From: Glutamicibacter protophormiae
Lineage (GTDB): Bacteria; Actinomycetota; Actinomycetes; Actinomycetales; Micrococcaceae
Assembly (NCBI RefSeq): GCF_014647495.1
Contig: NZ_BMPH01000002.1
Coordinates: 248,001-312,000, forward strand
DNA: 64,000 bases
Direction: 5' to 3'
Made by a program: the position numbers and the translations under genes. The stretch's first letter is position 1, and each line of letters opens with the position of its first letter. The notes under the pieces are model-generated. The model saw nothing but the letters and a program-made list of their open reading frames with translations. It made no database searches and was not told the origin of the DNA. Shown in pieces: positions 2,028 through 48,231 of this stretch.

Positions 2028-3427
2028 ATGAACCATCAAACAATCTCAAGGGCCGATCTCGGGTCGCTGGGTGCTTCCATTGCAGGAAACCTGGTCACGG
2101 AAGCGGACCATGGGTACGACGATGCCCGCTCGCTGTGGAACGCCATGATCGACCGCCGACCCGAGTTGATTATCAGGGCCGGGGAACTCACGGATATCCC
2201 GCGCGCGCTCGACTTCGCGCGCAGCCATCGCCTGCCGCTCGCAGTCCGCGGAGGCGGGCACAACGTGGCGGGGTACGGCACCGTCGACCGAGGCATCGTC
2301 CTGGACCTGCGTGCTTGCAACAAGATCCTGGTTGAGCCGTCGCTGCGACAGGTGAATACCGGACCGGGAACCCTGCTTGGAGAACTCGACCAAGCCACAA
2401 GCGCCCATGGACTGGCCGTTCCCGTCGGGTGATCTCGCGGACAGGAATTGCAGGACTGTGTTTGGTCGCAGGTTTCGGCTGGCTGACACGCGCCTACGGC
2501 CTGACCGTCGACAACCTCCTTGCCGCGCAGATGTACACGCCGAGTGGCGAAAAAGTCCGCGCCGATGCCCAGGAAAACCCCGAACTGCTGTGGGGATTGC
2601 GCGGCGGTGGCGGCAACTTCGGGATCGTGACCGACTTTACCTTCAACGCGCGTCCGCTTCCGGAGACGGTGCTCGCCGGAAACCTGATCTACCGGGCGCC
2701 GCATTGGCCCGGAGCATTGCATGCTCTGCGGGACTGGGCCGAGGACCTGCCGGAGGCGATGACGGTCATTGCAACAGTGCTGGTTCCACCCCAAGAGTGG
2801 GAACTAGGCACCGACACGATCCTCGCCGTGGGCTTCGTGTGGGCAGATCAGGATCACCAAGCCGGAACGGCGTGCATGGAGCGCTTCACGGAACTCGCAC
2901 CGCCGGATGTCCAGGATGTCGCCGCGACCCCGTGGCCGGAATGGCAATCATCCTTGGAGGATGTCTTCCCGAAGGGGGTGCGCGCGTATTGGAAGAACAC
3001 CGGGTTCGATGCCCTGAATGAGGACACCATCTCCATGCTGGTGCGCAAAGCCGAGGAACTTACGTGGCCGGGGACGGCATTCGATATCCATGTCATGGCA
3101 GGCGCCATGGCCAGGACTGCGCAAGACGCTACGGCATTTCCCGACCGCTCGTCGGAATTTTGGATCAATGTTTATGGGTTCTGGAAGGACCGGGCACAGG
3201 ACGCACACCATGTCGAGTTCATCCGCGGTTTCTATCGGGATATGCGGACGGTGACCCACGGAGGCGAGTACCTCAACTTCTCCAGCATCGATGCCCCGTC
3301 CGCTGCTGGATTCGATGCCCTGGCCGTGTATGGACCGGAGAAATACGCGCGGCTAGCCGCACTGAAACGACGCTACGATCCACGCAATGAGCTTCGGCTG
3401 AACCACAACATCAACGTCTCGAGTTGA
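2028..3427 (+). pseudogene. FAD-binding berberine-type oxidoreductase, interrupted by a -1 frameshift
   Basis: Two adjacent frames together encode one FAD-linked oxidase. The first (2028-2432, AGGAG 8 nt before its ATG) carries the FAD/PCMH start with the flavin-linking motif VRGGGHNVAG and ends at HGLAVPVG. The second (from 2429) continues with VISRTGIAGL, GFGWLTRAYGLTVDNLLAA and LRGGGGNFGIVTDF, and ends with the berberine-bridge C-terminal motif YDPRNELRLNHNIN. In intact family members the junction reads G-V-I-S-R-T-G without a break. Here the GGG at 2427-2429 is one G short, creating TGA at 2430-2432. No other damage is visible, so this is either a recent mutation or a base-calling error. 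Substrate is not predictable; relatives oxidise sugars or alkaloid-like alcohols. Confidence 0.8.
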
Positions 3428-3599
3428 GCAGCGCAGGATGTTCGGCGGACCGGTCACCGGTTCTCCACGCACCACCGGGCGGCTGCCACCTCGGTGAGGC
3501 TTTAGCGCCTTGCCGCACCGCCGAAGCAGTGCGGCAAGGCAACGGCCGCCGGGTTCAGTACCTTCTTCGCTCGGCCTGCCATGGGCTGCAGGCAGCCAA

Positions 3600-5660
3600 T
3601 CAGCCCAGCAGCTCGGGCAGGTCGCCGGGCTCCTGTCCCAGGACGTTCTCGGCCAGGAATCCGGTGACCACCTGGTACCAGATCTTCGCGTGCTGCGGGG
3701 CGAGCACCCAGTGGTTCTCGTCCGGGAAGTACAAGAAGCGGTGGGCGGTGGTGCCGTCCGCCTGCTGCGGCAGACCGGAGGAGGACAGCAGCTCGTACCA
3801 GAGGCGCAGTCCTTCGCCGATCGGCACCCGGTAGTCCTTGTCGCCGTGGATGACCAGCATCGGTGTGACGATCTTGTCCACCGAATGGTGCGGCGAATTC
3901 GCCTCGATCATCTCCGGGCTCATCTCGCGGGTCCAGTAGAACGAGGCGTCGGTGGTCTTTCCGAAGCCGTCCAGCGCCCAGAGGCTCGCGTGGGTGACGA
4001 TCGCCTTGAAGCGGTCGGTATGCCCGGCCACCCAGTTGGCCATGTAGCCGCCGAAGGATCCGCCCATCGCGGCGGTGCGGGTTTCGTCGATGTCCTCGCG
4101 GGCCTCGGCCGCGTCGGTGATCGCCATCAGGTCCGTGTAGGGCGCCTGGCCCCAATTGCCCCAGCCGCGCTGGATGAAGTCCTGCCCGTAGCCGGTGGAC
4201 AGGGCTGGATCAGGCAGCAGCACCGCATAGCCCTGCGCCACCAGCAGCCACGGGTTCCAGCGCCAGCTCCACGCATTCCAGGAATTCAGCGGTCCGCCGT
4301 GGATCCACAGCAGCAGCGGCGCCCGGTTCTGCGCGCCGGCTCCCTCAGGCAACGCCAGCCAGGCGCGGACGGTTGCCCCGTCGACCTCGGTGCTGATCTC
4401 TTCCAAGGTGCCGGGCAGCTGCGGGCGCGGTGCGGGGGAGAGCAGCTCGGTGACCTGGACGTAGTCGCCGGCTTCAAGATCTCCGATGTGTGTCAGGTCC
4501 AAGGCCACCGGCTCGGCGGGGTGCTCGTAGCTTGCACGCAGCGCGTAGGCGGCGCGGGAATCCGGGCTGACCAGGACGTTGGTGAAGGCGCCGGTGTCGG
4601 TAAGCCGGGTGATGCGGTCGTTTTCCAGACGCAGGTGGAAGACCGGGCCGTGCCCGTCTTCGTCGGCGACCAGCAGCAATGACATGCTGTTGGGCACCCA
4701 GACGATCTCGGTGGCCCAGCGGTCCCAGCCCACCGCGATCTGGTAGGACTCGCCGCTGGCCAGGTGCATGACGAACAGCTCGCAGACCGGGGCGGATTCC
4801 GGGGTGGAACGGCGCCAGCGCGCGTAGGCGAGCTTCGCCGAGTTCGGGCTGATCCTGCCCATGGCATATTCGTAGGTCTCGTCCGGGGCCAGCAGCATTT
4901 CCTGGGCGCCGGTGTGCATGTCGATGCGCATCAGGCCGACGGCTTGGTCTCCGCGGCCCTCGGGAACGATCCACTCGGTGATCAGGAAGTCGCCATTGGG
5001 TGCGACGTCGGAGGAAGCCTCCACCAAGTTTGCGCCGATCCCCGGGGTCAGGTCGGTCAGCTCGCTGTGCTCCTGGCCGGTAGGCAGGCTAATGGCATAC
5101 AGGTGCGGGGTGGCCGGGCCCAGATCGTGGTCCCAATAGCGCACCGGGTAGCCGGTGTGCAGGATGGCGGAGACTTTCTTCTCCTTGCGGGCCGCGCGCA
5201 GCTTGGCCTCGTGTTCAAGGTCCGTGGCCCTGCTGAGCGCCGAGGAACGGACCAGCACGGTGTGCGGGGATTTGGCGCAGGTGGCCAGGGATTCGACCCC
5301 TGCCGGATGGGTGATGACCGAACGGGCCTCGCCGCCGGCGGCCGGCAGCAACCAGCCTTCGGTCACCGCATCGTCCTTGGTGGAGCGCTTGGCGCTGAAT
5401 AGCAGGTCGCCGTCGGCGGTGAAGACGGGGCTTGACTCCCCGTGCTCCGAGTAGGTCAGCCGGCGGGCCGGGTTCTTGCCAGTCGGGTCGACCTCCCACA
5501 GGGCGTTGGTGTATTTGGTTGCGTCCTCGCTCAAGGTGCTCAGCGTGGTAACCAGTCGGCGCCCGTCGGGGGAGAGCGCCAGGCTGCCGATACGCGGCAT
5601 GGCGACGTAGGAGTCCAATTCCTGAAATGAATGCTTAGAGTGTTTCACCTCACATATCAT
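3600..5660 (-). CDS. S9-family serine peptidase (prolyl oligopeptidase / acylaminoacyl-peptidase type)
   Basis: About 686 residues. The N-terminal ~400 residues form a WD40-like propeller with repeated SPDG/SPNSAKLAYA-type blades. The C-terminal part is an alpha/beta hydrolase with the nucleophile elbow GGSFGGYMANW (near base 4058), acid loop HGDKDYRVP and catalytic histidine DENHW (near 3717). Such enzymes cut short peptides in the cytoplasm. The start is uncertain: ATG at 5660 and GTG at 5648 both lie just before the conserved opening HSFQELDSYVAMPRIGSLALSPDG, and neither has a strong ribosome site. The frame stays open to 5750, but that extension overlaps a terminator hairpin and reads as non-protein. 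It is monocistronic, behind the permease terminator. Confidence 0.92.
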   Translation of the reverse strand: MICEVKHSKHSFQELDSYVAMPRIGSLALSPDGRRLVTTLSTLSEDATKYTNALWEVDPTGKNPARRLTYSEHGESSPVFTADGDLLFSAKRSTKDDAVTEGWLLPAAGGEARSVITHPAGVESLATCAKSPHTVLVRSSALSRATDLEHEAKLRAARKEKKVSAILHTGYPVRYWDHDLGPATPHLYAISLPTGQEHSELTDLTPGIGANLVEASSDVAPNGDFLITEWIVPEGRGDQAVGLMRIDMHTGAQEMLLAPDETYEYAMGRISPNSAKLAYARWRRSTPESAPVCELFVMHLASGESYQIAVGWDRWATEIVWVPNSMSLLLVADEDGHGPVFHLRLENDRITRLTDTGAFTNVLVSPDSRAAYALRASYEHPAEPVALDLTHIGDLEAGDYVQVTELLSPAPRPQLPGTLEEISTEVDGATVRAWLALPEGAGAQNRAPLLLWIHGGPLNSWNAWSWRWNPWLLVAQGYAVLLPDPALSTGYGQDFIQRGWGNWGQAPYTDLMAITDAAEAREDIDETRTAAMGGSFGGYMANWVAGHTDRFKAIVTHASLWALDGFGKTTDASFYWTREMSPEMIEANSPHHSVDKIVTPMLVIHGDKDYRVPIGEGLRLWYELLSSSGLPQQADGTTAHRFLYFPDENHWVLAPQHAKIWYQVVTGFLAENVLGQEPGDLPELLG

Positions 5661-45370: not shown

Positions 45371-45754
45371 ATGGAAAGCGACCGGGATTTCAACGTGTTT
45401 GTGCAGGGCTGCCCCTCGCGTGAAATCATGCAGCGACTGGGCGACAAGTGGACCCCGCTGGTGCTGCTGGCGCTCGCCGGCGGGCCGCTACGTTTCTCCG
45501 CGTTACGTCAGCGCATCGGCGCGGTGACCCCCAAGGTGCTCACCAGCACGCTGCGCACCCTCGAGCGCGACGGCCTGCTGCTGCGCACCGTCACCGCCCA
45601 GGTCCCGGTGCGCGTGGACTACGAACTGAGCGAGGTGGGCCGCAGCCTGCTGGGTCCCCTGGAGGCCATCCGGCTCTGGTCCGAGGAGCACGTGCCCGGC
45701 GTGCTGCGCGCCCGCGGCGAGTTTGACCGCAGGTCAGAGCCAAGCGAAAGCTGA
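45371..45754 (+). CDS. HxlR-family transcriptional regulator with a replaced C-terminus
   Basis: 127 residues. Winged helix with CPSREIMQRLGDKWTPLVLLALAGGPLRFSALRQRIG and KVLTSTLRTLERDGLLLRT, as in HxlR/QorR redox-sensing regulators; the N-terminal Cys is conserved for electrophile sensing. The gene's last ~132 bases (45599-45730) recur at 48076-48207, beyond an AT-rich insert. The present tail RSEPSES differs from the tail TRDGAAL at the distal copy, which adjoins chromosome-like DNA and is probably the original end. Divergent from the NmrA-like gene. Confidence 0.9.
   Translation: MESDRDFNVFVQGCPSREIMQRLGDKWTPLVLLALAGGPLRFSALRQRIGAVTPKVLTSTLRTLERDGLLLRTVTAQVPVRVDYELSEVGRSLLGPLEAIRLWSEEHVPGVLRARGEFDRRSEPSES
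45599..45730 (+). repeat. 132-bp repeat, hxlR copy (left)
   Basis: Aligns with 48076-48207 without gaps and with 5 differences (45604, 45656, 45697 region, 45717, 45723), most in third codon positions. It marks the left edge of the insert. Confidence 0.9.
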
Positions 45755-45867
45755 CAGTGGCCAGAGACGCAGGTTATTTCTATACTTTTGAGAAGTGCGA
45801 CGTGCAACAGGATTATTCCAATGAAAAATAGTAAAAAAGAATTGTAATTGCGTAAAATATTGTGTAC

Positions 45868-46368
45868 TTAAATGTCATTTCTTTGAGGTGGATCGTTTAA
45901 TTTACGTAAATCTCTTCTCTCTTTTAGGTATGAAATAAAATTCCTTGTCATGGCCTTGGCGCGCGCAAATTTTCCAAATCTTTCAACTGTGGAGTCAATT
46001 GTGACAATCCATTCCATGTTGCTAGTGTCTAGGTAGCGAATGCCCCAAATGTATTGTGACTTCTGAATCGAAGAAACTTTCAATTTATCGAAGGGGTAAC
46101 TTGCTCCAGGGGCAACCTCATTTACACGCAGTTCAGTGCCAATTTTTCGCAGGTCTATGACCTCCACGTTTCTAATTGGTTCGGGCAAGTAGTTCGTGAC
46201 CACGGCTTCATTATCTTTGCTGACTGAAAATAAAACACTATTTCCTGCGCGAATTATGGCCTTATGCCTGTTGTGGAAAAATTTATAAATCATTGTCGCG
46301 GAATTTGCTATAGATACGAAAAGGGCAATCCACGCAACTATGGAACCAGGATCTAAATCGGCGAACAT
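45868..46368 (-). CDS. single-pass membrane protein of unknown function, cassette gene B
   Basis: 166 residues. An N-terminal helix (IVAWIALFVSIANSATMIY) anchors the protein; a basic segment NRHKAIIRAG follows, then a beta-rich cytoplasmic domain (VVTNYLPEPIRNVEVIDL, VNEVAPGASYPFDKL, YIWGIRYLDTSNMEWIVTI) and a basic helical tail. The middle part resembles the small immunoglobulin-like domains on many actinobacterial orphan membrane proteins. The ATG overlaps the TAA of the upstream gene (TAATG), so the two are coupled. No homologue recognised. AT-rich codon use points to recent transfer. Confidence 0.75.
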   Translation of the reverse strand: MFADLDPGSIVAWIALFVSIANSATMIYKFFHNRHKAIIRAGNSVLFSVSKDNEAVVTNYLPEPIRNVEVIDLRKIGTELRVNEVAPGASYPFDKLKVSSIQKSQYIWGIRYLDTSNMEWIVTIDSTVERFGKFARAKAMTRNFISYLKERRDLRKLNDPPQRNDI

Positions 46369-47045
46369 TATCGAGTTTGACCGTATGCTAATGCGAGGGA
46401 AATTTTCGAAACATTTACGGAAGCGACAGTTTCTGAATCAAGTAAGATCAGCAAACCGTCAATAATATGAAAAGATCGATTCAGCCGTTTCTTGCGAGCC
46501 CTTCTCTTCTTGATTGTGTGGCATGCTTGGATGCTTTCGGCAATGGTGGAGCAGTAATATTTAATAGAATTGCCAGATAGCATGTTTTCATCAATGATTA
46601 GGTCACTTTTTGTTCGCCGGATCATCTTTCGAGAGTATCGAGGATACTTATGTGTTTGAATTTTCTTAATATTAAAAATCCCGACCAATCGATCTTGCTC
46701 TTCAAGCCAAGCAAGATAGCCCCCTCGACTGAAATCAAGGTATGCGAGAAATCGTTTTGCTGAGACGCGGGGTGGAATTCCAAAAGCCTGGCTGAACAAG
46801 TTTGTGAGATCTTCAGAGTGTTCCTCAATGTTGCTCGCTAAAAATGCAAAATATTTTTGCAATTCTTCTTCGTTTTTGAGCTCATTTCCAAGGGCAGATG
46901 AGACGGAACTTCCATGGCGAATTTGTTCGACCATGTTCCTTGCGTCACGAAGAGTAGCGAGACTGGACCTGATTGGTTCGGACGCATTGAGACCTTCATA
47001 ACTCCTGTTGCTGTGGTCATCTTTTTCTTCTGCTAATTCCGTCAT
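46368..47045 (-). CDS. unknown soluble protein, cassette gene A
   Basis: 225 residues from ATG 47045 with GGGAG about 11 nt upstream (TTG 47072 is an alternative). The N-terminal half is mostly helical with a possible coiled coil (NELKNEEELQKYFAFLASNI). The middle has a compact block AKRFLAYLDFSRGGYLAWLE, followed by a Lys/Arg-rich patch KKRRARKKRLNRSFHIIDG that could touch nucleic acid or lipid head groups. No catalytic motif seen. Translated together with gene B, it may form one functional unit with it. AT-rich, unlike the host. Confidence 0.75.
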   Translation of the reverse strand: MTELAEEKDDHSNRSYEGLNASEPIRSSLATLRDARNMVEQIRHGSSVSSALGNELKNEEELQKYFAFLASNIEEHSEDLTNLFSQAFGIPPRVSAKRFLAYLDFSRGGYLAWLEEQDRLVGIFNIKKIQTHKYPRYSRKMIRRTKSDLIIDENMLSGNSIKYYCSTIAESIQACHTIKKRRARKKRLNRSFHIIDGLLILLDSETVASVNVSKISLALAYGQTR

Positions 47046-47433
47046 TTTGAGCTCAACTCCCTTAGAGGACAATAGGGTGTGATGATCGTTCTGCTTGTGC
47101 GTTTAGAACATGAAACACCAAAATCGTATTTTTGTCTATAAGCGTGATTGATGCTGAGGGCTCATTTGGTTGAGAACATTACGGCTCATTGCGAGCATGA
47201 GGAAGGTTGAGGCCTGAGGCATGTGTCGAACTTGAACTGAGATCACAAGGATGATGTATTGAATCATGCAGGGGCGCCGTTTTTTAGAAATGGAAATTTA
47301 CTCTTGAGTTTTAGTGGCGCTTAAAGCGGTTTTTCGACTCTTTGCATGTTGGCATTGTGTATAACCAAGTATGCCAGACCACCGACTACCGACAGGTAAC
47401 TGACCATCGCTTTGGAATGATTGTCGCTGGGGT
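47046..47433. other. AT-rich gap inside the insert
   Basis: About 390 bases without a believable gene. It must hold the promoter for cassette genes A and B near 47060-47160. Confidence 0.5.
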
Positions 47434-47805
47434 CTATTCAGTGCGGGTGTGCAGGCTGCGGAGCGGAGTGCCTAGCGAGGGATAAGGTGATCGAATGCGG
47501 TTCAAGATCCGATTTGTGTCGGCCTTCGACGTCCAATTGATTAATTGTGCTTGGACTATGGCTTTGACCGTCGGACCGTCAAGGATGCTGAATTTGAGCC
47601 GGCCGTAGGCCGCTTCAATAACGTCCCATAGATCAGTGGCTGGGGATACGAGCACTTTCGTGTCAGCGTTTGCTGGGGTGCTGAGCAGCCACCCGACGGA
47701 ATGTGTTTCAGAGGTGAGTTCGTGCATGATCTCGTTCGGGATATCGCACATGGCCACCGGCGCCTGCTGGGAGTCGAAGTCGAGCGCGACTTGGCCGAGA
47801 AGCAC
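47434..47805 (-). CDS. hypothetical protein, possibly 5'-truncated
   Basis: 123 residues from GTG 47805, but the same frame reads on as protein-like sequence (EHLGSVNTNIDLAVLTATAK) up to a stop at 47893-47895, without a better start codon. The visible part includes CDIPNEIMHELTSETHSVGW and DLWDVIEAAYGRLKF. It is more GC-balanced than genes A and B. I suspect a fragment whose 5' end was cut at the insert's right side. No family recognised. Confidence 0.45.
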   Translation of the reverse strand: MLLGQVALDFDSQQAPVAMCDIPNEIMHELTSETHSVGWLLSTPANADTKVLVSPATDLWDVIEAAYGRLKFSILDGPTVKAIVQAQLINWTSKADTNRILNRIRSPYPSLGTPLRSLHTRTE

Positions 47806-48075
47806 CCGATCTTTCGCGGTTGCCGTCAGGACGGCAAGATCGATGTTGGTGTTGACTGAGCCGAGATGTTCAACGAGGTCACGGGTAGGCCATTACTCTC
47901 CACGTTGTTCAATGCAATGGTGCCGGATGCGGTACTTAATTTACTTATGATCCGATCGCATCTTTTTTGGCGTGCCGAAACACCAATTCTTGGTAAGGGG
48001 ATCACCTACACAGGGCTGCTAGACCATCAAAACAGCATTTATGTCGATTCTTGAACTGCAAAACATGGCATGTTA

Positions 48076-48207
48076 CAGGTTCCGGTGCGCGTGGACTACG
48101 AACTGAGCGAGGTGGGCCGCAGCCTGCTGGGCCCCCTGGAGGCCATCCGGCTCTGGTCCGAGGAGCACGTGCCGGGCGTGCTGCGCGCCCGCGACGAGTT
48201 CGACCGC
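48076..48207 (+). repeat. 132-bp repeat, displaced hxlR copy (right)
   Basis: Second copy of the hxlR 3' segment, differing from 45599-45730 at five positions (about 96% alike by eye). Confidence 0.9.
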
Positions 48208-48231
48208 ACCCGGGACGGCGCCGCGCTGTAG
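48076..48231 (+). pseudogene. displaced 3' end of hxlR
   Basis: Reads QVPVRVDYELSEVGRSLL and on to LRARDEFDRTRDGAAL then TAG, in the same frame as the intact gene at 45371. It has no start or DNA-binding part. It is followed by normal high-GC chromosome, so this is most likely the original end of hxlR before the insertion. Confidence 0.85.

Follow-up and report, generated by a model that had tools for sequence, protein, structure and literature searches.

The 3′ end of an hxlR gene occurs twice within the 64,000-nucleotide stretch of Glutamicibacter protophormiae DNA analysed here (the window), and both copies enclose a segment that is richer in A/T than its surroundings. The gene itself is located on the plus strand at 45371..45754, encodes 127 aa, is intact and matches Pfam PF01638 with an E-value of 3e-23. 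Its 3′ end is part of a 133-nt direct repeat with a left copy at 45599-45731 and a right copy at 48076-48208, both on the plus strand, with 128 of 133 positions identical (96%) in an ungapped comparison. Between the copies lies an insert of 2,344 bp (45732-48075) with a GC content of 45.1%, whereas the flanks reach 64.7% and 66.5%. An earlier note on this DNA had described this segment as approximately 2.3 kb of A/T-rich sequence between two hxlR 3′ ends, and the measured values of 45% against roughly 65% GC agree with that description. Within the insert, the left 1,597 bp have a GC content of 41.7% and the right 747 bp one of 52.3%. As the note had also recognised, the left copy belongs to an intact hxlR with substituted last residues: the final seven are encoded by the insert, and the open reading frame ends in RSEPSES, which replaces TRDGAAL. 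The right copy has no start and leads into the original end of the gene (RDGAAL plus stop, 48209..48231, plus strand), so that it terminates in TRDGAAL* and is followed by chromosomal sequence. Thus, hxlR received a new end, and its original C-terminus was not restored.

The corresponding site without an insert was found in Glutamicibacter soli (G003, identical with L057; approximately 92% identity), to which the genome of the window is close and which is the kind of insert-free relative that the note had proposed to look for. Here, hxlR is uninterrupted, ends in TRDDATL*, and is directly followed by the sequence that stands after position 48208 in the window. This contiguity supports the claim that the right copy continues into ordinary chromosome. 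With regards to this empty site, the insertion is real, and the simplest view is that it occurred after the separation from G. soli. The gene is open and uninterrupted not only in G. soli but also in eleven other named relatives, and none of the relatives examined carries an insert inside hxlR; the site is therefore not a hotspot, and recurrent use of it was not observed. Across Glutamicibacter, the HxlR proteins show varied endings and lengths of 121-127 aa. Judged by this variability, the replacement of the C-terminus is probably tolerated and harmless.

Compared with G. soli, each repeat copy shares 117 of 133 positions. Of the five mismatched sites, two appear derived in the right copy and one in the left copy, where it corresponds to a residue change; the other two are ambiguous. 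Duplication followed by drift would yield such differences together with an equal likeness to G. soli. A search of the own genome with the insert gave no match elsewhere. An assembly artefact, one form of which the note had considered, is an unlikely source of the repeat, given the five mismatches between its copies and an insert that occurs only once.

The right side of the insert carries the 5′ part of an element of the IS1634/IS1549 family with a frameshifted N-terminal transposase remnant (47329..48079, minus strand), as identified by nucleotide and protein matches. Among 17 congeners, the insert showed one partial match, which adjoins a transposase with a DDE domain. This element of another Glutamicibacter genome (G005) aligns with the minus strand of the window from 48080 down to approximately 47361 with 64.6% identity over 725 nt (E 1e-75), and the alignment begins no more than 4 nt from the edge of the right copy of the repeat. 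At the protein level, matches to the remnant span 47348-47883; transposases of intact relatives match it in two reading frames by tblastn, with their N-terminal part only and E-values up to 2e-13, and several frameshifts are present. Related genes on plasmids carry the annotation ‘IS1634 family transposase’. The homology ends abruptly at approximately 47328, where the base composition shifts as well. No match to the transposase C-terminus was obtained in the insert, and the complete DDE catalytic domain is missing. In terms of its sequence, the remnant is thus a relic and not an active member of the family, and it would no longer be able to move by itself. No other copies of the insertion sequence (IS) were found in the own genome.

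The 5′ terminal inverted repeat CCTGTAACATGCCA was located by terminal-repeat scoring at 48066..48079 on the minus strand and shares 4 nt with the right repeat copy. The consensus derived from many intact relatives is CCTGACTCGTGCCA, two sibling elements within the genus carry CCTGTTTCGTGCCATG and CCTGTGTCGTGCCATG, and the window has CCTGTAACATGCCATG at the right junction, with a score that is attained by 1e-4 of the window positions. A profile built from IS ends across the family was not specific enough and missed even the real 5′ end, whereas the direct comparison with genus members was successful. Should the 133-bp repeat represent the target duplication in full, the second IS end would have to sit at 45732. 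Scoring of the expected site of the 3′ terminal repeat (45729..45742, plus strand) resulted in a match at 7 of 14 positions, which is not significant, as it is equalled by 4.9% of the window positions and is therefore at chance level.

The remaining A/T-rich segment (45732..47328, 41.7% GC) contains two genes on the minus strand, which are joined by a TAATG overlap and form a two-gene operon. Gene B (46368..47045) encodes 225 aa from an ATG at 47045 that is preceded by AAGGGAG, with an alternative TTG start at 47072 (234 aa), and its product is predicted to be all-helical. For gene C (45868..46368, 166 aa), a membrane helix followed by a beta-sandwich is predicted. The longest open frame of the segment exceeds that of all 500 shuffles. 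Neither protein gave a meaningful match in Pfam, NCBIfam, PHROGs, PADLOC or PDB sequences. Both structure models are only moderately confident and have no relative of solved structure; fold searches with them gave no match at E≤0.001. The plasmid, phage and viral collections yielded no relative for the queries tried, and neither did a search of the genome collection with B. Short weak matches in G1398, G997 and G1047 were rejected; the one in G1398 lies amid housekeeping genes and looks like chance.

Distant homologues of B and C were found adjacent and in the same order in two Micrococcales genomes (G363 and G664), where a third, divergent gene A adjoins B. In G363, the likeness of C is weak alone and rests on its position and a three-way alignment. 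On one side of this trio lie an NACHT-like NTPase and an ISL3 transposase, and on the other a type IV restriction enzyme, an HNH enzyme and a DrmD-like helicase. The trio in G664 adjoins Wadjet genes (JetA, JetC and JetD were matched among the open reading frames scanned, and one of JetB size lies between them) and a PD-T4-5-like gene. A neighbourhood of defence genes is thus present in both of the two homologous loci covered, which is a small sample. Based on this neighbourhood, the B-C operon may belong to an anti-phage defence module, and its role as defensive cargo is putative. Compared with these defence loci, with their Wadjet, type IV restriction and DrmD-like helicase neighbours, the window cargo shows no trace of gene A. 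The three-gene cassette, with A divergent and B and C co-directional, was observed at approximately 8200-10000 of L107 and 9100-10900 of L108, in defence islands and without family matches.

Long direct repeats are not foreign to this IS family. For IS1549 and IS1634, long and variable direct repeats of 8-514 bp were described, while 5-6 bp are listed as typical for the family, and no mechanistic model for the long, variable repeats had been proposed (review PMC2266710). We set our repeat beside 16 distinct insertions from the bacterial family of the host, for each of which the duplication was measured at both terminal repeats. The values were 16, 26, 29, 30, 45, 56, 62, 82, 84, 115, 145, 164, 182, 250, 266 and 352 bp. 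Other IS1634-family insertions within the same bacterial family had duplications of 5-8 bp or none detectable, so that the overall span is 5 to 352 bp. The terminal-repeat type nearest to that of the window (TCGTGCCA) covers the cases with 16, 26, 182 and 250 bp. With regards to this range, a duplication of 133 bp is ordinary and requires neither an integrase nor an affinity for hxlR. In nearly all relatives measured, the two copies of the duplication are identical, whereas those of the window differ by 3.8%, and the insertion event must therefore be old.

Several further features of these elements were observed. Duplications of 16-352 bp at clear terminal repeats occur at the loci L027, L038, L039, L042, L044, L047, L054, L115, L116, L117, L122, L123, L125, L126, L127 and L130, and the terminal-repeat ends of the IS1634 family often share 1-2 nt with the duplication. 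At 2254-5969 of L116, two IS1634-type copies are located 256 bp apart, with duplications of 182 bp and 7 bp. An IS1634-type element of 2,040 bp with two 3′ terminal repeats, i.e., a partly duplicated 3′ end, is found at 2336-4375 of both L117 and L130. Duplications of 352 bp and 62 bp surround the longer form in its two copies, which indicates that this longer form is what moved.

Taken together, the duplicated hxlR end is very probably the scar of an old insertion by an IS1634/IS1549-family element with a long target duplication, within which a remnant of the IS and a foreign A/T-rich operon are now found. Such an element would have entered the 3′ end of hxlR in this Glutamicibacter lineage after the split from G. 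soli and, as its relatives do, would have copied an extended piece of the target, in this case at least 133 bp. On the left, hxlR would thereby have kept a working length and acquired a new C-terminus, and on the right a second copy of its end, lacking a start, would have resulted. Of the IS itself, the 5′ terminal repeat and the N-terminal portion of the transposase gene are all that is now left, and the foreign two-gene operon makes up the remainder of the insert. Counted against this reading are that only one of the two ends expected of a simple transposition product can be recognised and no transposase C-terminus is present, the 3.8% divergence of the duplication copies, the lack of a second IS copy in the genome, and a defence link that draws on two loci.

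With regards to how cargo and IS became joined, two versions of this explanation can be reconstructed. In one, the initial insertion was that of an ordinary IS1634 element, whose 3′ half was exchanged for the A/T-rich segment at a later time by illegitimate recombination. We would give this version about an even chance. In its favour, the homology stops abruptly at approximately 47328 together with the change in composition, and no 3′ terminal repeat can be recognised despite a drift of no more than 3.8% in the duplication; however, no intermediate form was seen. Part of the left duplication copy was possibly replaced as well, and the observed 133 bp would be a minimum under this version. The other version, in which the whole unit moved as a non-autonomous IS1634-type transposon with B-C between two IS ends and a transposase supplied in trans, would make the 133 bp the complete duplication and is conceivable, if not favoured. 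The repeat brackets the IS part and the cargo together, the transposase part carries more frameshifts than would be expected from so little drift in the duplication, and the left junction somewhat resembles a terminal repeat, with GCCA at the right distance. However, this likeness is at chance level, and the own genome holds neither a second copy of the unit nor a helper element. As a good 3′ terminal repeat should remain recognisable after a drift of 3.8%, replacement of the 3′ half by the cargo is somewhat more likely than movement of the whole unit. A more far-reaching proposal appears doubtful, in which an undescribed, membrane-linked defence operon would travel as cargo of a non-autonomous IS1634-type transposon whose transposition duplicates tens to hundreds of bp of target.

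Two explanations outside an IS insertion were weighed as well. The end of hxlR could have been duplicated by accident, through staggered-break repair or template switching, with filler DNA, including an IS fragment, taken up in the process. A mosaic insert composed of a truncated IS and a second segment, with a single recognisable IS end, would fit such an event; we still consider it improbable, because it would be an unneeded coincidence for the junction to fall on a terminal repeat whose IS family makes such duplications itself. The earlier note had seen the signature of an element that enters the 3′ end of a protein gene and restores it. Of this claim, the part that stands is that an insertion created the second hxlR 3′ end. 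A genomic island whose site-specific recombinase targets the hxlR 3′ end and brings its own copy could also account for the intact left gene and the displaced 3′ end on the right, and the 4% difference could mean that one copy arrived with the element. However, the C-terminus was replaced and not restored, the right boundary is an IS1634/IS1549 terminal inverted repeat followed by transposase remnants, no other hxlR insert occurs among the relatives examined, and the insert contains no open reading frame for a tyrosine or serine recombinase and no family match to one. A gene-restoring island is accordingly very unlikely, and the missing integrase, for which the note had asked an explanation, is accounted for by an IS-type insertion with a long target duplication.

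The preferred reading of an old IS1634/IS1549 insertion can be compared with known systems. With this family of DDE transposases, formerly placed in IS4, the window shares the transposase N-terminus, the 5′ terminal repeat and the long target repeat (PMC2266710). It differs by a truncated transposase without the catalytic domain, by the lack of a recognisable 3′ terminal repeat, and by a foreign two-gene cargo that brings the insert to 2,344 bp, whereas most relatives measure approximately 1,630-1,770 bp. IS that carry passenger genes are named transporter IS. Like these, the window combines an IS end and genes without a function in transposition inside one repeat-flanked unit, but a single IS end was identified, and a joint movement of IS and cargo is putative. 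Genomic islands at gene 3′ ends likewise leave an open gene on the left and a displaced 3′ end on the right, whereas the window has an IS end at its boundary and a site that is not reused. The locus is therefore best explained as an example of a known process, the long target duplication by an IS1634-type element, and not as a new kind of integrating element. The cargo pair represents a small candidate defence module with no family match in the libraries searched. Furthermore, the census of 5-352 bp within one bacterial family eases the study of the unexplained variation in duplication length (PMC2266710). Long duplications by IS1634-type elements can mimic integrative elements located at the 3′ ends of genes, a point of relevance to the automated detection of islands.
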